From positions 1 to 38,532 of the forward strand of contig NZ_QAAA01000022.1 of the NCBI RefSeq assembly GCF_003046545.1: 38,532 nt of DNA. The letters are read 5' to 3'. Below, one piece after another: positions 5,236 to 14,904 of this stretch. Position numbers and translations under genes: made by a program. The stretch comes from Rhodovulum imhoffii. Its GTDB lineage: Bacteria > Pseudomonadota > Alphaproteobacteria > Rhodobacterales > Rhodobacteraceae. Below the pieces are notes generated by a model, which saw only the letters and a list, made by a program, of their open reading frames with translations, did no database searches and had not been told where the DNA came from. Every line of letters starts with the position of its first letter. Within the stretch, counting starts at the first letter, position 1.

Positions 5236-6675
5236 ATGCTTTGGTCTCTTATCAAGATCCTTTTCTTCGTCGTCCTGGTCGCAGGACTGACCTATGGCGC
5301 CGGACTGCTGATGGAAACCGGCCCCGGCATCCGCGTGGCCATAGGCGACATGGAGTTCACCTTCGGCCCCCTTCAGGCGGTCATTCTGGCGCTGCTTCTG
5401 GTGCTGTGTGTGTGGGTGTTGCTGAAAGTCGCCGGGTTTCTGGTGGCGCTGCTGCGGTTCGTCAACGGGGATGAAACCGCAATCAGCCGCTATTTCAACC
5501 GCTCTCGCGAACGGCGTGGATTTCAGGCGCTGGCTGACGGCATGACGGCGCTGGCCGCAGGCGAGGGTCGCCTTGCCATGTCCAATGCCGCCAAGGCCGA
5601 ACGCTTTCTCCGGCGCCCGGAACTGACCAACCTGCTGACCGCCTACGCCGCCGAAATGACCGGCGACAAACGCAAGGCCACCACGGTTTACAAGAAACTG
5701 GTAAGCGATGAGCGGACCCGCTTTATCGGGGTGCGTGGCCTGATGAAGCAAAAACTGGACGAAGGCGACACAGACACCGCGCTGAAACTGGCGGAGAAGG
5801 CCTTTGCCCTCAAACCCCGGCATGAGGAAACGCAAGATACGCTGCTTCAGCTTCAGGCCGGCCACGAGGACTGGAAGGGCGCGCGCCAGACCCTGAATGC
5901 AAAGCTGCGCCATGGCAACCTGCCCCGTGATGTGCACCGCCGCCGCGATGCGGTACTGGCCCTGCAAGAGGCCCGCGATGCACAGGCCGATGGCGAAACC
6001 GCCCGGGCCCAGGAAGCTGCAATCGAAGCAAATCGCCTGTCGCCGGACCTCGTGCCCGCGGCGATCATGGCCGCCCGCAGCTACGTGGAACAGGACAAAC
6101 CCCGCTTTGCGGCCAAGGTTCTCAAAAAGACATGGGAAACCCAGCCGCACCCCGAACTGGCGGCCGCTTTTGCCGAAATCGCACCCGATGAAACCCCCGA
6201 AGAACGCGTGAGGCGCTTTGGAGAGCTGACATCGGCCCGTTCCGATCACCCGGAAACGCGGATGCTCAAGGCGGAGCTTTACCTTGCTGCAGAGGACTTC
6301 CCTGCTGCGCGCAAGGCGCTGGGCGATCTGGTAGAAACCGCGCCAAGTCAGCGTGCCCTGACACTGATGGCCGCGATCGAGCGCGGCATGGGCGCCGAGG
6401 AAGCCGTGGTGCGCGGCTGGCTGGCACGGGCGGTGAACGCCCCGCGTGGGGCCCAGTGGACCTGCGACAGCTGCGGAACCGCCCATGCAACATGGGCCGC
6501 GGTCTGCCCCAGTTGCAAGGCCTTCGACACGATGAGCTGGAAAGAACCGCCCGAAGGCGAACTGGCCCAGCCCGGTTCTGCCGGGATGCTGCCACTGATC
6601 GTCGGAACGCTTCCGGCGGCGGAGGAAGGGGGCGACGCCGGGGCCGGAGAGGCTGAAAAAGCCGCTGCGAACTGA
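5236..6675 (+). CDS. hemY: HemY-family membrane TPR protein with C-terminal zinc ribbon
   Basis: A 479-aa protein with two N-terminal membrane helices (about residues 5-26 and 45-72), the HemY_N region, then TPR-like helical repeats (about 100-390). The C-terminus holds two CxxC pairs (C410/C413 and C424/C427), a rubredoxin-like zinc ribbon of the type seen in LapB. HemY here is the TPR-type heme-associated protein, not the protoporphyrinogen oxidase of Bacillus. Its exact role is unresolved, and the name comes from its place in hem operons. The start ATG lies 11 bases after the mitofilin gene with a GAGGA-type ribosome site. An Ala/Glu/Gly-rich tail of about 45 residues follows the zinc ribbon. 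Confidence 0.9.
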   Translation: MLWSLIKILFFVVLVAGLTYGAGLLMETGPGIRVAIGDMEFTFGPLQAVILALLLVLCVWVLLKVAGFLVALLRFVNGDETAISRYFNRSRERRGFQALADGMTALAAGEGRLAMSNAAKAERFLRRPELTNLLTAYAAEMTGDKRKATTVYKKLVSDERTRFIGVRGLMKQKLDEGDTDTALKLAEKAFALKPRHEETQDTLLQLQAGHEDWKGARQTLNAKLRHGNLPRDVHRRRDAVLALQEARDAQADGETARAQEAAIEANRLSPDLVPAAIMAARSYVEQDKPRFAAKVLKKTWETQPHPELAAAFAEIAPDETPEERVRRFGELTSARSDHPETRMLKAELYLAAEDFPAARKALGDLVETAPSQRALTLMAAIERGMGAEEAVVRGWLARAVNAPRGAQWTCDSCGTAHATWAAVCPSCKAFDTMSWKEPPEGELAQPGSAGMLPLIVGTLPAAEEGGDAGAGEAEKAAAN

Positions 6676-6685
6676 ACCCGGCATT

Positions 6686-6717
6686 CCGATCCACCCTCTG
6701 CCACCGGGGTGGATCGG
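6686..6717 (+). terminator. Stem-loop after hemY
   Basis: An 11-bp perfect stem (6686-6696 pairing with 6707-6717) with a 10-nt loop begins 10 bases after the hemY stop. No T-run follows, so it is not a classical intrinsic terminator; it may be Rho-assisted or a 3'-end protector of the hemD-mitofilin-hemY transcript. Confidence 0.5.
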
Positions 6718-7165
6718 ACGCGACCGGGGCTTATCGCCCACGGGGACGCGACCTGTCTGGGGCATGCGGGAATTTATACATCCTGAAATCGCGCACGCTT
6801 CGTTTTCGCCCCTTGGCTGGGGTGAGGCGACGCGCCGCCGGAGGGTACATTTTTGGCGGATATCCGGGAACAGGACAGATACAAACTTCATTCGGCAGAG
6901 CCCGGGAATTTCGTTTTCACCGGAACACCGGATTGCCCGCAAGCATGGGCTGCCTTGCGGTGGAGCCTTTTGAAATCATACGGCCTCACCGCTTTCGGGC
7001 GTTGAAATTACAGCTAGTCCAGCGATAACCGTTGCGCGGACCCGGTGCGTGCAAAAGGGCCGGGCAAATTTCCGGGCGCTCTCTCTCCCGCAAAAGCCCG
7101 AGGCTGCGCAGGGCGCTTCTCCGTCGATCCGCAACTCGGATCTGTGGCTTTGACACCCCGCGTCT

Positions 7166-7185
7166 TTTCGGCACCGGTGCCGAAA
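7166..7185. repeat. Perfect 20-bp palindrome
   Basis: TTTCGGCACCGGTGCCGAAA reads identically on both strands. It lies in gene-free DNA and is not followed by a T-run on either strand, so it is more like a protein-binding dyad than a terminator. Nothing else identifies its function. Confidence 0.5.
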
Positions 7186-7462
7186 TTGGGCGTGGGCAGT
7201 CCTGCCCTCTTCCCCGAATTCCGATGGGAACCGGCGTGATTCGAATCACTGGGTCACATCAACCGCGTTTCGCCATGTCGACAAGAAACCGGCCCCGCAT
7301 ACCGCCCAGACCACATCGTCATGATATTGCAAGGGGGGATATTCGCCCTCTTCTCCCTTGACGCGATGCGGGTGCTGGGGGCCGGGCGAAATCTGGAAAC
7401 CACGGATTCATTAAATTTTTCGCCAAATTCATTATCTTTTTTGACGCGCCTATGAACATTTC

Positions 7463-7759
7463 ATGTGGGAGGCGCCTGCAATCATTAGAAAAGAAATCGA
7501 GCATCCTTTTTGGAAAAGGCCTGCGCAAGACAAGCAGGGGAAAAGAAGACAGCATCACAAGCTTACAGAGATTCCTATGAGGTTCGACCCAAAAGATTCA
7601 AATCATACTCGGATTAAAATTGCCTTGGAGGGTGAGGGTCTAAAGCAACCCGAATTAAATTCAGGATACGTGTTTGCACATTTTGATAGCCTTAGGAGAC
7701 GTTTCGGCAGGCGCTCACCGGCTTCAATGGGGATATATGTAAAATCGGTTGTTCGCTGA
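7463..7759 (+). CDS. Doubtful 98-aa hypothetical ORF
   Basis: An open frame of 98 codons starting MWEAPAIIRKEIEHPFW. I do not recognise it. Its codons (AGA, AGG, ATA, TTA, AAA) are unlike those of the surrounding genes and the base composition is A/T-rich, which fits either recently acquired DNA or non-coding DNA open by chance. No clear ribosome site precedes the ATG. It ends 36 bases before the first Hint gene and could be the remnant of an acquired gene. Confidence 0.2.
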   Translation: MWEAPAIIRKEIEHPFWKRPAQDKQGKRRQHHKLTEIPMRFDPKDSNHTRIKIALEGEGLKQPELNSGYVFAHFDSLRRRFGRRSPASMGIYVKSVVR

Positions 7760-7772
7760 ACATGAATTGTTC
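7758..7772. promoter_or_regulatory. Inverted repeat just upstream of the first Hint gene
   Basis: GAACA and TGTTC arms separated by TGAAT, 10 bases upstream of the ACGGAG ribosome site and 24 bases before the ATG at 7796. A shorter overlapping dyad (GTTC-GCT-GAAC, 7751-7761) shares an arm. The placement suits an operator or an RNA hairpin that controls translation, but no regulator can be named. Confidence 0.3.
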
Positions 7773-7795
7773 ACACAACTTAACGGAGTATAACG

Positions 7796-9352
7796 ATGGC
7801 CGATCATGACAGTATCTACCGGGAGGTTCTGGGCGACGCGGACGCTTCGACGGTCGGTCGCGTGAAAACGGTCGCTGGCTTCATTTACAGCATCTCCACG
7901 GCAACCGATATCACCCGCTCCGGGGGAGACGGGAGAGCCCCCGAGGGCAGCGACGATTTGCGGAACGATCCGTTCGGCGCAGCCGGTCGACAGGACATCG
8001 AAGATCAGGTCGTAAGCGGCAAAGCCTGTGACGGCATGCTCCAGACCACGAGGTCCCGCGCATTTGTTCACGATTTGGGCGGTAATCTCGTCGGCAAGGG
8101 ATGCGAACTCGTTCTCGAGATGGCCGGAGATGGGATTGCCGACCGGCCGGGTGAGATCGTCGGGTATTTCCTGACCGGGGGACCAGGGGAGGAGGATGTC
8201 GCCACCCCCTCTACAATCCCCCATGAAAGGCCTGAATCCGCCGCGCTCTATGACGATATCGCCGCGCCATGCCTTACACGGGAAACGCCCATCCGGGCCG
8301 ATACCGGCTCCCGGAGGGTCGAGACGCTTCGCCCCGGCGTCCGGATCGTGACACTGAACCGTGGGGAACACCCCATTCGCCGGGTCGGGTCAGGCAAGAA
8401 GGCCGGGGCCAATCCGGAGGCCCGCCCCAAACCCCGCCCCACTCACATTTCAGCGGGGGTATCGGGTAACGGGTTGGCAGGCCGTGATCTTCTGGCATCC
8501 CGCCAGCACAGGAAGATGGTGGCCTCCCACATTGCCGCAAGTCTGCCGGGCACGCACGAATGTCCGGTTGCCGCGAGCAAGCTGGCCGGGCGGCCGGGGG
8601 TTTTCGTCGATGAGACCGTCGATGAGGTGAAATATTTCCATCTGATGTTAGACCGACAGGCGATCCGTTTTGCCGAAGATGCCCTGACCGAAAACCTGGG
8701 CCTGGACCAAAAGGCACGCGAGACCATTCCACCCGAGTCGCGCGAGGAGGAGACCCTGCCGCTGTTCCCGGCGATGGCCGATCAGGACATCCCCATGACC
8801 AGAACCCGGCCAATCCCGGGGAGCCCGCAGCAAAAGCGGCTGGTGGCAGAACTGGCAGCGGCCGCACAGCACCCCGCAAGAGCGCGAAACGCCGCCCATG
8901 CGAAGAATAATCCCATGAGTTCGCCTGACGGGAAGCAGGACACTCGTCAGGCCACCCCGCCGTGCCCCGAAAGCAGGCCCCAGCACGGCGGGGACGAATT
9001 TGCCCGCTCCAACCAGGGCACCCCTCCCACAGATGACGGGCCGCACCATCCAACCGGAAATTGCGGTCCCGCATCTGACAGATTTCGCCACCTGCGCAAA
9101 CCCGGGCCATCGCGTCCCGCATACCCATCCGATGAAAGGCATGCCGAAAAGTATACAAACCGCCACATTCTCTTTCTTGCAAATCCAGCTTGTGTTTCGC
9201 CACACCGGCACCGCACCCCTTGTGGCAGAAAACCCGACACTCTAGCACTCAATACGAAAGCTTCGTTTCGGTGTACGGCTTCTGACCTTCGGGTCCAGAG
9301 CGTCCGCAAGGACGTTCCGGGACCGTCCAGTGCAAACACAAAGCAACCATAA
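7796..9352 (+). CDS. Hint_2 (hedgehog/intein-type) protein, divergent, possibly degraded at the C-terminus
   Basis: A 518-codon frame. Residues about 157-325 form a divergent Hint_2 domain. Cys159 starts it (CLTRETPI), followed by RRVETLRPGVRIVTLNRGEHPIRRVG, DLLASRQHR with the conserved His238, VKYFHLMLDRQAIRFAEDA and LPLFP; each aligns in order with the neighbouring intact Hint protein. Differences suggest divergence or decay: the usual Gly four residues after Cys159 is Glu, and SPQH is SRQH. The first 158 residues resemble nothing I know. From about residue 355 (base 8860) the frame is Pro/His/Arg-rich without family resemblance, as if the true stop had been lost or a frameshift had occurred. 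The ATG has an ACGGAG ribosome site 8 bases upstream. Hint domains of this class cleave themselves through a thioester at the Cys; activity here is uncertain. Confidence 0.6.
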   Translation: MADHDSIYREVLGDADASTVGRVKTVAGFIYSISTATDITRSGGDGRAPEGSDDLRNDPFGAAGRQDIEDQVVSGKACDGMLQTTRSRAFVHDLGGNLVGKGCELVLEMAGDGIADRPGEIVGYFLTGGPGEEDVATPSTIPHERPESAALYDDIAAPCLTRETPIRADTGSRRVETLRPGVRIVTLNRGEHPIRRVGSGKKAGANPEARPKPRPTHISAGVSGNGLAGRDLLASRQHRKMVASHIAASLPGTHECPVAASKLAGRPGVFVDETVDEVKYFHLMLDRQAIRFAEDALTENLGLDQKARETIPPESREEETLPLFPAMADQDIPMTRTRPIPGSPQQKRLVAELAAAAQHPARARNAAHAKNNPMSSPDGKQDTRQATPPCPESRPQHGGDEFARSNQGTPPTDDGPHHPTGNCGPASDRFRHLRKPGPSRPAYPSDERHAEKYTNRHILFLANPACVSPHRHRTPCGRKPDTLALNTKASFRCTASDLRVQSVRKDVPGPSSANTKQP

Positions 9353-9451
9353 GGTTAACAAAAAATTTGACCGCACCCAAAAGAGTATTAGTCTGCAACT
9401 ATAGGACCAGGCGCGACATAACGATTCAAGGTTGATACGGAGTAAGCCGGC

Positions 9452-10528
9452 ATGCCGACCTACAATTGGAACATCGACCCATCTCTCACGACCAACGACC
9501 CTCCCGGTGACGGGATCTATATGAATTGGGCCGGGCTTCCCGATGCCTCAAGCACAAGCACCTCTGCGGATACTTACAGGATCACCATTCTCGATACGGC
9601 CCCCACGCTGTATCTCAAGAAAGGCGGGACAAGGACCTTCAACTCATCCGAAACGACATCGGGCTACGGCTCGGCCGACGATGTGGTTGCCCTGGACATC
9701 CAGGCAACCGATTTCGGCGGCACGAAAAAAAACAAAGGCGTGGTCACCTACACCCTGAGATGGGGGAACGCTGACGGCAACGATTCCCTTCGGCTCAAGC
9801 TCAATGACAGCATCACTTACTCCCTGACCATCACCGGCCCGGAAAGCGCCACGCTGCGCCTTTTCGACGCCAGCGGTGACGAACTCCGGTTCAGCCTTAT
9901 CGGTTTTGCCAGTGTGAGTATCGTCTGTTTTACCGAAGGCACGAAAATCCTGACCCCCGAAGGCGAAAAACGGATTGAATCCCTGCAAATCGGCGACCTG
10001 GTGGAAACAGCCGACCACGGCCCCCGGCCCATCCGCTGGATCGGCAAGCGCACCTACTACAAGTCCGACCTTCGCCTGCATCCCGAATACCGCCCCGTAA
10101 AATTCCGCAAGAATACCTTGGGCAATACACGCGCCCTGTCGGTCTCTCCGCAGCATCGCGTGTTTGTCGACGGCCCGCTGGTGGAGGCGCTGACCGGCGA
10201 AAGTCAGGGCGCGCTGGTTCCGGCAAAGCACCTGGTGAACGACAAGTCCGTCATTGTCGACACCAAGGTGGAGGAGGTCAGTTACTATCACATGTTCTTC
10301 GACCAGCATGAGATGGTCTGGGCCAATGGCGCACTGGCGGAATCCCTGTATCCCGGCAAGATGTCGCTGCGGTCTCTGGCTGCGGATTCTCGCCGCGAGA
10401 TCCTGACAATGTTCCCCGAACTGGATCGCACGCCGGGCGAGGTCACCGCCTCCTACGGACCGAAAGCGCGGCGGGTTCTTAAAGCCCGCGAAGCCAGGGA
10501 AATCAGCGTCATCCCTGCTGGCGGCTAG
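9452..10528 (+). CDS. Hint_2 (hedgehog/intein-type) domain protein
   Basis: A 358-aa protein. The first 158 residues are rich in Thr/Ser/Asp and beta-strand-like, without a signal peptide (secretion, if any, would need another route). Residues 159-325 are a typical Hint_2 domain: Cys159 in VCFTEGTKILTP, KRIESLQIGDLVET, GPRPIRWIGKR, SPQHRVF with His235, VSYYHMFFDQHEMV (His280, His286), ALAESLYPG and EILTMFPEL. It ends with the family's usual YGPKARRVLKAREARE tail. There is no intein-type C-terminal His-Asn plus Cys/Ser/Thr, so protein splicing is not expected; thioester formation, hydrolysis or attachment of a nucleophile to the N-terminal fragment is the more likely chemistry. The ribosome site is ACGGAG. 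It ends 105 bases before the sulfotransferase gene on the same strand. Confidence 0.9.
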   Translation: MPTYNWNIDPSLTTNDPPGDGIYMNWAGLPDASSTSTSADTYRITILDTAPTLYLKKGGTRTFNSSETTSGYGSADDVVALDIQATDFGGTKKNKGVVTYTLRWGNADGNDSLRLKLNDSITYSLTITGPESATLRLFDASGDELRFSLIGFASVSIVCFTEGTKILTPEGEKRIESLQIGDLVETADHGPRPIRWIGKRTYYKSDLRLHPEYRPVKFRKNTLGNTRALSVSPQHRVFVDGPLVEALTGESQGALVPAKHLVNDKSVIVDTKVEEVSYYHMFFDQHEMVWANGALAESLYPGKMSLRSLAADSRREILTMFPELDRTPGEVTASYGPKARRVLKAREAREISVIPAGG

Positions 10529-10633: not shown

Positions 10634-11524
10634 ATGGGTAAGACATTTCATTTCATTACCGGCCTGCCCCGATCGGGGTCGACCTTGCTGTCGGCCATTT
10701 TGCGGCAAAATCCACGAATATCCGCCGAAATGACAAGCCCGGTCGGCTCGCTGACCCAGCACCTTCTGACGCTTTGTTCCAGCAATGTCGAACTGTCGAG
10801 CTTCTTCACCTCGCCAGCCAGAGCCCGCCTGATGCGTGCGGTCTTCAGCGCGTATTACGCCGAAAAAGCGGATGATATGGTGATTTTCGACACCAACCGC
10901 GCCTGGGCCGGCCGAATTGCGGAAGTCCTGCATATCTTCCCCGACGCCCGCTTCATCGCCTGCGTCCGCGACCCGTCCATGATTCTGGATTCGGTCGAAA
11001 GGGTTCTTGAACGCGATCCCATGCGCCTGTCCAGCCTTACCGCCCCCGGTGAGAACATCGCCCAGCGCGCCCGGCGGATGATTTCTCCGGGGGGCTTCAT
11101 CGGGGATCCCCTGGCCAACCTCAAGAAAGCGGTGTTCGGGCCCCATTCCGAACGTGTGATGATCCTCGAATACGATGCGCTTTGCTTCGATCCGGGTACG
11201 GCGATCGACGCGGTTTACCGGTTCGTGAATCTGCCCGCATATGACCATGATTTCGAAAATGTTCGCTACACCGCCGAACGCTTTGACGAACACCTCAACA
11301 CGCCCGGCCTGCACACCGTCCACGGTCCGGTTCGCTGGCAAGAACGCGAACCGATGCTCCCGTCCGAGATCGTCGAAGACCTCTCGGCACAGCAGTTCTG
11401 GAACGCCCCCATGCGCAGCCGCTGCGCACGGGTGCTTTTGGGGGCGAAGGAACAAGGAAACACAAAGCACGATACGGATCACGAGGTTCCGACGGACGAA
11501 ACCAGGAAGATCGCCCATGCCTGA
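10634..11524 (+). CDS. PAPS-type sulfotransferase
   Basis: A 296-aa sulfotransferase-family protein (Sulfotransfer_3-like). The 5'-phosphosulfate loop is GLPRSGSTLL at residues 10-19. The 3'-phosphate site is RDPSMILDS, with Arg112 and Ser120 in the RxxxxxxxS spacing. By family it moves a sulfuryl group from PAPS to an alcohol, sugar hydroxyl or tyrosine; the acceptor here is unknown. It starts the tight four-gene unit: its last 8 bases (11517-11524) overlap the start of the ligase gene. The ATG at 10634 was chosen because an in-frame-looking ATG just upstream (10621) terminates at once. The Arg/Thr/His-rich C-terminal 30 residues look non-conserved. Confidence 0.9.
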   Translation: MGKTFHFITGLPRSGSTLLSAILRQNPRISAEMTSPVGSLTQHLLTLCSSNVELSSFFTSPARARLMRAVFSAYYAEKADDMVIFDTNRAWAGRIAEVLHIFPDARFIACVRDPSMILDSVERVLERDPMRLSSLTAPGENIAQRARRMISPGGFIGDPLANLKKAVFGPHSERVMILEYDALCFDPGTAIDAVYRFVNLPAYDHDFENVRYTAERFDEHLNTPGLHTVHGPVRWQEREPMLPSEIVEDLSAQQFWNAPMRSRCARVLLGAKEQGNTKHDTDHEVPTDETRKIAHA

Positions 11525-12953
11525 AACGTTATCATCCCCGCTGGCCGAATTCTGGCACTACTGTGCCCCGTCCGAGCTTGTCGACCTCCAGTCGGGGGAG
11601 CGGATCGCCGCAGAGGCATTCGAGATTGCCGTATCGAGACTTGCCGGAAAACTTCCGCCACCTCCCGGCCGCATCCTCATCCGCGCCCGGTCGCCCATTC
11701 GGATTCTGACTGCAATCTTCGCTGTCTGGCGCAGTGGAAATACCGCCGTCATCGCCGATTACAGCTACCCGGAGGCGACGGTTGCAAGGTTTTGCGACCG
11801 GCTCTGCGTCGCCGCCATCATCACTGACAACGCCATTCAGCAATACGCGGCCCCCCCTGACAGGAACCTGATGGGCTGCGAAACGCCCCCCGCTCTGCTG
11901 TTGGCCACATCCGGAACGTCCGGAGCACCGAAATGGGTCGCATTGACCCATACCGGTCTTTCCGCACGGATCGAGGCAAATATTGCCTTCATCGGGCACG
12001 CGGCCCTGGACACGGTTTTCGTTCCTCTGCCGCTGTCCTTCGGACACGGCCTGATCGGCAACGCACTGACGGCAATCGCGGCCGGGGGCCGGCTTGTCTT
12101 CGACCCCTGCGCCGCCCGGATGCCCATGCGGCTTGGAGAAACGCTGGAGGCACAATCCATCAGTTTCATGAGTTCGGTTCCCAGCCTTTGGGAAACGGCG
12201 ACACGGTTGAGCCCCTCGCCCAGGCTGTCCACGCCCTTGCGGGTTCATGTGGGCTCTGCCCCGCTGACCACGAGCCTGGTCACCCGCATCCGGAAATGGG
12301 CTGGCCCGACGGTGTCGCTTTACAACTGCTATGGCATCACGGAATGTTCGAACTGGATCGCGGCAGCGGCTGTAGATCAGAATTACCAACCGGGCGATGT
12401 GGGATACCCTTTTGGTGCCCAACTGGCAATCCGCGCCGACAACGGCGCCATCATGAACAGCGGAGAGGGTGAGATCCTCGTCTCAGGGCCATCGGTAATG
12501 GCCGGCTACGTGGATGCCCCTTCGGAAAGCGGCATGGCCCTCGACCGCGGCTGGTTCCACACCGGCGACAGGGGCAGCCTGGACGGCGACGGGCGGCTGC
12601 GCCTCGGCCCCCGGATCAAGGACCTGATCAATGTCGGCGGGATCAAGGTGGATCCTTCGGAAATCGAAAGTGCGCTGGCCAGCTGCCCGGAAGTGGCCAC
12701 TGCGGTCGCCTTCGCGGTCGCGGACGAAATCACCGGGGAGGCGGTCGCGGTTTGCGTCGTCCCCGAGCACGGCTGCCGCCCACCGATCGCCGATCTGCGG
12801 GCGCACCTGCAAAAATACACCAGGCGGCCTGCCTGGCCGATCCGAATCGAGATTGCCAACTCCATACCCCTGACCGCCCGCGGCAAGATCAGCCGGACGC
12901 TGCTGCGTGAGCGGGCGCTTGAACGTGAAAAGGAAAGGGACAGCCATGACTGA
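11517..12953 (+). CDS. AMP-forming acyl/aminoacyl ligase (ANL superfamily)
   Basis: A 478-aa adenylating enzyme, shorter than typical acyl-CoA synthetases (about 520-560) in its N-terminal part. Core motifs are intact: ATSGTSGAPKW (A3, residues 130-140), YGITE (A5, 272-276), GWFHTGD (A7, 345-351), RIKDLINVGGIKVDPSEIE (A8, 366-384) and TARGKISR with the A10 Lys at 457. It should activate a carboxylic acid as acyl-AMP and load it onto CoA or, given the carrier-protein gene two genes downstream, onto that carrier. The carboxylic acid cannot be read from the motifs; DltA-like, aryl-acid and fatty-acid ligases are all possible. The ATG at 11517 overlaps the sulfotransferase end by 8 bases; the frame stays open upstream but that part is shadow. 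The stop overlaps the GNAT start by 8 bases. Confidence 0.92.
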   Translation: MPETLSSPLAEFWHYCAPSELVDLQSGERIAAEAFEIAVSRLAGKLPPPPGRILIRARSPIRILTAIFAVWRSGNTAVIADYSYPEATVARFCDRLCVAAIITDNAIQQYAAPPDRNLMGCETPPALLLATSGTSGAPKWVALTHTGLSARIEANIAFIGHAALDTVFVPLPLSFGHGLIGNALTAIAAGGRLVFDPCAARMPMRLGETLEAQSISFMSSVPSLWETATRLSPSPRLSTPLRVHVGSAPLTTSLVTRIRKWAGPTVSLYNCYGITECSNWIAAAAVDQNYQPGDVGYPFGAQLAIRADNGAIMNSGEGEILVSGPSVMAGYVDAPSESGMALDRGWFHTGDRGSLDGDGRLRLGPRIKDLINVGGIKVDPSEIESALASCPEVATAVAFAVADEITGEAVAVCVVPEHGCRPPIADLRAHLQKYTRRPAWPIRIEIANSIPLTARGKISRTLLRERALEREKERDSHD

Positions 12954-13587
12954 CGATGCCGTGGACAAGTCCCCTTTGCCGGGGGGCGGTCCCGCCGCAC
13001 CGGCGCTTCACCGGCCCAAGCGCATCGAGATCGAAACCGAGCGGTTCCTCATCCGTGGCGTCCGCACGACCGACATCGACCAGACATGGGTGGACTGGGC
13101 AGCCGATCGCGAGGCAATGCTGATGTATAATCAGAAGATCGACCCGGAAATTGCACACGCCCATTTCGTGCGCATGGCGCTGGACGTCAATGGCGTACGG
13201 ACATTCATGCCGGGAATCTTCGACAAGTCCGGGACACCGATTGGGTATTTCCTGATCTCCAGGCGTCCGGGTGCAGGTGTTGCAAGCTTTGAATATTTTC
13301 TTGGGGATCGGGCCTGGTGGGGCAAGAACGTGATCCTTGAAACGCGCGCCGCACTGCTGGATTATTTTTTCGAGACGCATGACCTCGTGAAGGCAATGGG
13401 CTATCCGTTTGCAAGAAATTTCGCGTCGGTCTTCAATTACAAGGCCCAGGGGTGGATACAGGAGGGCACCCTGATGTCCCATACGGTTTCCGTCGCGGAC
13501 CCCGATACCCGCCTCGACATGCTTGTATTTCGTCTCTTCAAAGAGGAATGGGATGAGATCCGCAACACCCGGACCACCGCATCATGA
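12946..13587 (+). CDS. GNAT-family acyltransferase
   Basis: A 213-aa protein of the RimJ/RimL-like GNAT group (Acetyltransf_3). TERFLIRGVRTTDIDQTWVDW (residues 31-51) is the standard first strand and helix. FEYFLGDRAWWGKN (115-128) is the acyl-CoA binding motif A region. ARNFASVFNYKAQGW (156-170) is the usual final helix-strand, in the place of the common N..S...EK.GF. The second Gly of the usual GxG pyrophosphate loop is Asn128, so CoA binding may be altered. The start at 12946 overlaps the ligase stop (ATGACTGA). The stop overlaps the carrier-protein start (ATGA). It presumably transfers an acyl group, possibly the one activated by the upstream ligase, to an amine. The substrate is unknown. 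Confidence 0.88.
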   Translation: MTDDAVDKSPLPGGGPAAPALHRPKRIEIETERFLIRGVRTTDIDQTWVDWAADREAMLMYNQKIDPEIAHAHFVRMALDVNGVRTFMPGIFDKSGTPIGYFLISRRPGAGVASFEYFLGDRAWWGKNVILETRAALLDYFFETHDLVKAMGYPFARNFASVFNYKAQGWIQEGTLMSHTVSVADPDTRLDMLVFRLFKEEWDEIRNTRTTAS

Positions 13588-13805
13588 AGGCCCGGTATCG
13601 CAAGCTGATCGCCGAGGCGCTGGGCGTCGCCCCGCAAGGACTCCCGGATGCGGTCCGTATCGGAGAGACGGAAGGCTGGGACAGCATTGGCCATATCCGG
13701 CTCATCCTCATGATCGAGAAACAGCTGCGCCGGCAGTTGAGCGCGGAGGAAATATCCTCCGTCGTGGATTTCGACACAATTTGCACTCTTTTGGATTCGG
13801 CCTGA
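13584..13805 (+). CDS. Stand-alone acyl/peptidyl carrier protein
   Basis: A 73-aa carrier protein. The GWDSIGH motif places the phosphopantetheine-accepting Ser at residue 34. The four-helix pattern is visible: LIAEALGV at the start, IRLILMIEKQLRRQLSAEE in the middle, and VVDFDTICTLLDSA at the end. Size and motif are like DltC or the small ACPs found in sugar- and side-chain-modifying clusters rather than the fatty-acid ACP. Its ATG overlaps the GNAT stop by 4 bases. It is the last gene of the unit, and no phosphopantetheinyl transferase gene lies in this window. Confidence 0.92.
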   Translation: MKARYRKLIAEALGVAPQGLPDAVRIGETEGWDSIGHIRLILMIEKQLRRQLSAEEISSVVDFDTICTLLDSA

Positions 13806-13993: not shown

Positions 13994-14037
13994 ACCCGGG
14001 GCGCGGCGCCCCCGGTTCCGGGAGGCGCGCCCCGACC

Positions 14038-14904
14038 TCAGGCGCGCACCAGCTTCTCATAGGTTTGGGCGATGTCACGGGTCAGCGCACCGACCTCGAA
14101 GCTGTACGCCCCGATCTGGCCGACCGGGGTAACCTCGGCTGCGGTGCCGGTCAGCCAGCACTGCTCAAAAGCTTCAAGCTCACCGGGTTCGATATGACGC
14201 TCATGGACGGCAATGCCCTTTTCCTTGAGCAGCCCGATCACCGTCTGCCGGGTGATCCCGTTCAGGAAACAATCCGCCAGCGGGGTGTGGACCTCTCCAT
14301 CCCTGACGAAAAAGATGTTGGCGCCGGTCGCTTCGGCCACATAGCCGCGATAATCGAACATCATCGCGTCAGAACAACCCTTGGCTTCCGCAGCATGCTT
14401 GGACATGGTGCAGATCATGTAAAGGCCCGCGGCCTTCGCCTGGCTGGGGGCCGTGGCCGGGTCGGGACGTTTCCAACGGGAGATGTCCAGTTTCGCGCCC
14501 TTCATCTTGGCCTCGCCGTAATAGGCGCCCCACTCCCACGCCGCGACCGCCAGGCGCACCGGGTTGCGGGCGCTGGCCACGCCCATGTCTTCCCCCGAAC
14601 CGCGCCACGCCACCGCCCGAACATAGGCATCTTTCAGGCCGCTGGCGTCCAGGATCCGGGCCTTGGCGTCTTCGATCTGCTGGACGGTCCAGGGGATTTC
14701 GAAGTCGATCATGCTGGCAGATCGCCTGAGACGCTCGGAATGCTCGAGCGACTTGAAGATCTTTCCATTATAGGCCCGCTCCCCCTCGAATACGGAGGAG
14801 GCATAGTGCAACGCGTGTGTCAGAAGGTGCACCCTGGCATCCCGCCAGGGGACAAGTGCGCCATCCATCCAGATCACGCCGTCACGGTTATCATAGCCTG
14901 ACAT
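14038..14904 (-). CDS. ilvE: Branched-chain amino acid aminotransferase
   Basis: IlvE makes leucine, isoleucine and valine from their 2-oxo acids with glutamate as amino donor, using PLP. The 288-aa product is a complete fold-type IV enzyme. It has THALHYASSVFEGERAY (residues 29-45), AVAWRGSGEDMG (98-108), the PLP Lys expected at 157 in QAKAAGLYM, YVAEATGANIFF (about 187-198), and FLNGITRQTVIGLL in the C-terminal half. The ribosome site is GGAAAGGAAA before the ATG. It is divergent from petP with 177 bp between, a pairing usual in Rhodobacterales. D-amino-acid aminotransferases and aminodeoxychorismate lyases share the fold, but the length and motifs fit IlvE best. Confidence 0.95.
   Translation of the reverse strand: MSGYDNRDGVIWMDGALVPWRDARVHLLTHALHYASSVFEGERAYNGKIFKSLEHSERLRRSASMIDFEIPWTVQQIEDAKARILDASGLKDAYVRAVAWRGSGEDMGVASARNPVRLAVAAWEWGAYYGEAKMKGAKLDISRWKRPDPATAPSQAKAAGLYMICTMSKHAAEAKGCSDAMMFDYRGYVAEATGANIFFVRDGEVHTPLADCFLNGITRQTVIGLLKEKGIAVHERHIEPGELEAFEQCWLTGTAAEVTPVGQIGAYSFEVGALTRDIAQTYEKLVRA

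Follow-up and report, generated by a model that had tools for sequence, protein, structure and literature searches.

Four plus-strand genes in a 38,532-nucleotide stretch of the Rhodovulum imhoffii genome (contig NZ_QAAA01000022.1, positions 1 to 38,532 of the forward strand, hereafter the window) raise the question of whether a sulfotransferase, an acyl-activating ligase, an acyltransferase and a carrier protein encoded in one overlapping row also serve one pathway. The genes encode a sulfotransferase (PF13469) of 296 amino acids with a fold like that of the protein-tyrosine sulfotransferases (TPST) (10634..11524), an AMP-forming acyl ligase (ANL) of 478 amino acids (11517..12953), a GNAT N-acyltransferase (PF13302, RimJ/RimL-type fold) of 213 amino acids (12946..13587), and a small carrier protein of 73 amino acids with Ser34 as the putative phosphopantetheine site (13584..13805). 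All four frames are open at these positions and overlap their neighbours by 8, 8 and 4 bases (ATGCCTGA at 11517, ATGACTGA at 12946 and ATGA at 13584), as a first-pass annotation of the DNA had described. The same annotation took the four genes for a single unit that both acylates and sulfates its product; comparison with related loci shows them to be two modules, a conserved triad of ligase, GNAT and carrier, in that order, and a separate sulfotransferase that lies outside it.

The ligase was aligned with five relatives, and a scan of 84,980 species genomes returned 199 matching stretches, 149 of which encode relatives; the best 80 were kept. These 80 loci were picked by the ligase alone, and four of them (L038, L057, L083 and L091) were seed loci. 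A GNAT gene lies beside the ligase gene in 73 of the 80 and a carrier gene in 72, both being present in 69, in the order ligase-GNAT-carrier (65 loci), ligase-carrier-GNAT (3) or GNAT-ligase-carrier (1). With the seed loci removed, both partners are found in 65 of 76 loci and the order ligase-GNAT-carrier in 61 of 76. Ligase, GNAT and carrier are a conserved unit, with an order beyond chance. The window's own sulfotransferase family stands beside the triad in none of the 80 loci, 75 of which include at least 1.5 kb of upstream sequence. The four-gene order with this sulfotransferase family, for which the first-pass annotation had proposed a search across Rhodobacterales, was thus met in no other of the genomes examined, while the three-gene order is widespread.

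The triad extends well beyond the host's relatives. In a draw of 385 genomes from the class, the ligase was found at E 1e-55 in at least 14, one of them the window's own; 10 of the 13 other loci have a GNAT gene beside the ligase gene, nine of the 13 repeat DNA contained in the set of 80, and all four new ones carry the triad. In the family, at least 4 of 394 genomes contain the ligase at E 1e-50, again with the window counted, and within the genus that threshold yielded it in 1 of 16 genomes, the window's own. Because no more than 4 ligase and 6 sulfotransferase candidates were scored per genome, the family and class tallies are minimum values. A role restricted to Rhodobacterales was ruled out, the loci being spread across Alphaproteobacteria, and a few ligase records are labelled Gammaproteobacteria, Geobacteraceae, Planctomycetota or Legionellales. 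In a tblastn search against plasmids every match was under 60 %, the 20 listed lying at 27-32 %. A literature search judged on titles and abstract openings gave no description of the triad, which is not proof of its absence from the literature.

The first-pass description of the genes was confirmed. The ligase matches PF00501 (9e-40) and PF13193 (2.6e-13) and retains the TSGTSG..PK loop (P-loop) and the C-terminal Lys457, which places it among the ANL acyl ligases; the Thr131-Ser132-Gly133-Thr134 column, Lys139 and Lys457 are invariant across six ligases, the window's included, residue 135 of the latter being Ser. The GNAT has PF13302 (1.6e-12) as its sole Pfam family at E 0.1 or better, and its structure model, with a mean predicted local distance difference test score (pLDDT) of 93, has the GNAT fold and matches RimJ/RimL-type GNATs, the type to which it is assigned. 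The 50 matches listed are of RimJ/RimL type; they include RimL, an N-terminal acetyltransferase according to its PDB title, and the lasso-peptide acetyltransferase 9iy3 stands at rank 18. The carrier scores 19.2 bits against PF00550, below the cut-off of 20.8, and is absent from the matches listed in a whole-genome PF00550 search; Ser34 was accepted as the carrier site because the D33-S34 pair (the attachment site) is invariant in six sequences, the window's included, and because of the gene context. A gene of the acyl carrier protein (ACP) synthase family is present elsewhere in the host genome. Additional GNAT copies surround the ligase in a few loci (four in L080, three in L085 and two in L035), as though the cassette had more than one acceptor site to serve.

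The neighbourhoods of the triad were examined for two sets of markers, the lasso-type set comprising a kinase, NTP_transf_5, PqqD and B2, and the pseudaminic-type set PseB-, PseC-, PseG- and NeuB-like proteins. At least one lasso-type marker is present in 17 of the 80 loci and in the additional locus L021; all four occur in L021 and in 14 of the 17, the rest having three (L035), two (L093) or one (L048). One or more pseudaminic-type markers occur in 11 of the 80 loci, 8 of which carry two or more (phmmer E 1e-4), and no locus combines the two types. Neither type was found in the window or in any of 17 control stretches (344 kb with the window counted in), which were sulfotransferase and ilvE stretches of the family and not taxon-matched. 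On the ligase tree the context labels cluster, with 12 changes against a shuffled mean of 27.4. Family names were assigned from individual loci: in L089 PseB and PseC score above the NCBIfam cut-offs, in L069 PseG scores below its own, NeuB was named in L060, lasso B2 is above cut-off in L062, and PqqD, NTP_transf_5 and a weakly HprK-like kinase were named in L064. A small lipoprotein-like frame upstream of six loci (L022-L025, L029 and L030) was considered as a common acceptor and rejected, as it resembles synteny kept locally among closely related genomes.

The gene order in L089 is PseB-PseC-ligase-GNAT-carrier, and the GNAT therefore stands at the place of PseH, which is described as a GNAT that acylates an amino sugar (PMC4964394). 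PseH uses acetyl-coenzyme A (acetyl-CoA), whereas the triad GNAT is accompanied by a ligase and a carrier; furthermore, 69 of the 80 triad loci have no pseudaminic-type marker, and comparison of the GNAT profile with the PDB gave no PseH structure at E 1 or better. A likeness in gene content is also offered by the group II flagellin glycosylation islands of Aeromonas, compared by description alone, in which an AMP-dependent synthetase and an ACP are reported within a pseudaminic island (PMC7874193); there they accompany a 3-oxoacyl-ACP reductase, luxC and luxE, and the description names no such triad.

The lasso-type loci resemble lasso peptide clusters with a PadeK/PsmK kinase and a PsmN nucleotidyltransferase, enzymes of the kinds described as tailoring lasso peptides (PMC9266682), in that PqqD (B1), B2, a kinase and a nucleotidyltransferase lie near the triad in 14 of the 80 loci. 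They differ in the cyclase: no clear lasso cyclase was found in the 18 lasso-type loci within the flanks examined, and it seems absent there because the lone AsnB-like protein (1 of 18 loci, L062) scores as an asparagine synthase and not as a lasso cyclase. Sixteen small frames with a lasso-type leader, in which a Tyr-x-x-Pro-x-hydrophobic segment is followed in many by Leu-Ser-x-x-Thr-Ala, were found in 10 of the 18 loci (L028, L046, L055, L062, L064, L070, L073, L093, L095 and L097), with up to four per locus; L064 is from Chelativorans sp. and L097 from Oricola indica. With a looser pattern, 19 matches fell in the 296 kb of the 18 lasso-type stretches and 9 in the 305 kb of the 17 controls. 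The tight pattern gave 16 in lasso-type loci and none in the 63 other triad loci, the 17 controls or the window, and its specificity is fitted and not tested because it was written after the looser pattern's matches had been viewed. For four of five precursors tried, the sole NCBIfam matches were sub-threshold matches to lasso models. One odd precursor in L028 (11330-11731) has the lasso-type leader followed by a Peptidase_S74 (endosialidase chaperone) domain.

The sulfotransferase matches PF13469 (1.5e-17) and retains the loops that bind 3'-phosphoadenosine 5'-phosphosulfate (PAPS), with the segment GLPRSGST, and with Arg112 and Ser120 invariant in 13 sequences; an adenosine 5'-phosphosulfate (APS) kinase is encoded in the host genome. 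Protein-tyrosine sulfotransferases (TPST1/2) came first in both profile comparison with the PDB (E 3e-11) and fold comparison (TM-score about 0.5). The second Glu of the GEET segment of human TPST, which is taken here to be the catalytic base, aligns to Thr/Ser, and because of this the enzyme was not classed as a TPST. Relatives occur in at least 15 of 394 family genomes and at least 6 of 385 class genomes, the window being counted in both (14 and 5 others), and the 15 further genomes of the genus yielded none at E 1e-25. Among the 14 family relatives, 3 of which are short stretches, an RTX protein is the direct neighbour in 3 and a Hint_2 protein in 3; the 5 class relatives, with about 1.4 kb on each side, have neither neighbour, so that 6 of 19 have one or the other, and the window likewise has a Hint neighbour. 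This is a plus-strand Hint_2 protein of 358 amino acids (9452..10528) that ends 105 nt upstream of the sulfotransferase gene and is a candidate target of the enzyme. A class IV aminotransferase gene lies beside the sulfotransferase gene on the same strand in 2 of the 19 relatives (L117 and L118).

These observations fit best, at a probability of about 0.6, with the triad being a portable N-acylation cassette whose acceptor is set by its context, and which in the window has been joined to a separate TPST-like sulfotransferase, the likeliest outcome being a sulfated surface or secreted molecule. On the established chemistry of the three families, the ligase would adenylate a carboxylic acid with ATP to give an acyl-AMP and load the acyl group onto the phosphopantetheine arm of the carrier at Ser34, and the GNAT would then move it from the carrier to a primary amine. 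The neighbouring genes would determine the acceptor, which in pseudaminic-type loci would be the amine of a 4-amino sugar nucleotide (the PseH step) and in others a short ribosomal peptide, with a peptide amine as the possible acceptor in lasso-like loci; the likeness to RimL would suit capping of a freed N-terminus. In the window the upstream Hint protein would be the nearest candidate for sulfation, and acylation could affect that molecule or a different one. Because the window holds no lasso-type precursor and no marker of either context, and Hint proteins do not generally accompany the triad, the Hint protein is a better candidate substrate of the sulfotransferase than of the GNAT. Sulfation of a secreted peptide is described for RaxST (PMC6637879), likened here by description and not by sequence. 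Each enzyme is of a known kind, and the new element would be a three-gene activation-transfer unit that serves different acceptor pathways. If so, the presence of the triad beside one acceptor pathway or another would flag otherwise hidden acylated peptides and sugars, and the triad could be used to attach acids of choice to amines.

Several observations weigh against this interpretation. The GNAT, the carrier or both are missing by this search in 11 of the 80 loci, some of them cut by locus ends; neither is present in L051, L069, L078 and L081, of which three have pseudaminic-type genes, and one GNAT relative (L017) occurs without a ligase or carrier of the triad families. Neither context is present in 52 of the 80 loci. 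The branch of the window's ligase is very long, at 3.86 where the median is 0.5, and because of this the enzyme's substrate may differ from those of the other ligases. The residue after GK in the GNAT loop, which in CoA-using GNATs is usually Gly or Ala, is one of these two in 34 of the 74 sequences, so that an acyl-CoA donor is neither proven nor excluded. A Hint protein accompanies the triad in 1 of the 80 loci (L086) and lies about 6.5 kb from it in L021, and is for this reason no general triad acceptor; the nearest relative of the sulfotransferase (L117, 52 %) has neither a Hint nor an RTX neighbour.

A more specific version, in which the cassette of the cyclase-less lasso-like clusters caps the peptide amine after B2 cleavage to give N-acylated, perhaps phosphorylated, linear peptides, and in the window targets a secreted protein or peptide that is sulfated, is put forward only tentatively. 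GNATs are described as acylating amines of ribosomal peptides, as in the selidamide (phaeornamide) pathway, where PhaN acts in an alphaproteobacterium; that pathway is of the proteusin/lanthipeptide type, its cluster as listed includes neither ligase nor carrier, and hydroxyornithine receives the acyl group (PMC9505594). The window holds no PqqD, B2, kinase, nucleotidyltransferase or precursor gene, nor any PseB, PseC, PseG or NeuB gene. Its ligase stands beside those of L036 and L039 on the tree (support 87), which have neither context, as is also the case for the 15 loci nearest by the window's GNAT. Lasso-like clusters that have no clear cyclase would, if borne out, open a way to N-acyl peptides of ribosomal origin.

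The single four-gene pathway of the first-pass annotation, in which one small molecule, lipid, sugar or protein would be both acylated and sulfated, is unlikely. Its ligase, carrier and GNAT part holds as one conserved unit that fits activation, tethering and transfer as well as the two contexts; the link to the sulfotransferase is not supported. Overlap of all four reading frames speaks for a single pathway, as does L099, from another lineage, in which a tetratricopeptide repeat (TPR)-type sulfotransferase gene (5945-7639) lies directly upstream of the triad on the same strand. This is the sole sulfotransferase-triad pair seen in the 80 loci besides the window (L157 is the same DNA), and the pairing may be chance because TPR sulfotransferases are common in this class. 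A hand-written sulfotransferase motif search missed this known enzyme of L099, and its negative result was not used. A further point in favour is L123, where one strand (6508-10283) carries in succession a ligase-like frame, a Hint_2 gene and a sulfotransferase gene from the same family as the window's, but no GNAT or carrier of the triad families is present there or in any of the 11 longer sulfotransferase stretches. The ligase-like frames of L123 (174 bits) and L118 (87 bits, with an ACP-looking frame judged by eye) score far under the 473 bits or more of the best in the 80 loci.

Synthesis of a lipid-like or signal molecule by the triad (an N-acyl amino acid or a homoserine-lactone-like compound), independent of peptides and sugars, would account for the 52 loci with neither peptide nor pseudaminic-type markers, and the pairing of a GNAT-fold enzyme with an ACP is known from N-acyl amino acid synthases. 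It is distinctly improbable, as the GNAT matches PF13302 alone in Pfam and RimJ/RimL-type structures among those listed, and the two defined contexts suggest other acceptors. That the GNAT is an ordinary acetyl-CoA acetyltransferase, with the ligase and carrier supplying an acyl-thioester to another enzyme, agrees with the RimJ/RimL fold and the partly retained G-K-x-V loop but is very improbable, as the GNAT accompanies both genes in 69 of 80 loci and no other acyl-consuming family was recognised among the listed recurrent neighbours (those seen in four or more loci, with families assigned by eye).

The origin of the block was considered from its surroundings. To the right of the carrier gene, sibling genomes align from 14036-14045 (the end of ilvE) onward; this holds for each of the six examined out of 15 that have ilvE, and places the block at a synteny breakpoint. 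Between 7000 and 13500, six 500-base bins have a G+C content of 52-58 % and the other seven 61-68 %, compared with 63 % for the window as a whole. Together with the absence of the ligase and the sulfotransferase from the other 15 genus genomes, this suggests that the block was horizontally acquired. Promoter matches lay at the mean of shuffled sequence (1 against 1.2), and terminator matches were less than one standard deviation away from theirs (6 against 4.2). The host genome contains 11 Hint_2 domains, and a second one in the window (8267-8698) lies in a plus-strand open frame (7796..9352) whose true start is uncertain. To the left of the Hint genes, a small open frame (7463-7759) with 45 % G+C, in a window of 63 %, may be a foreign remnant.

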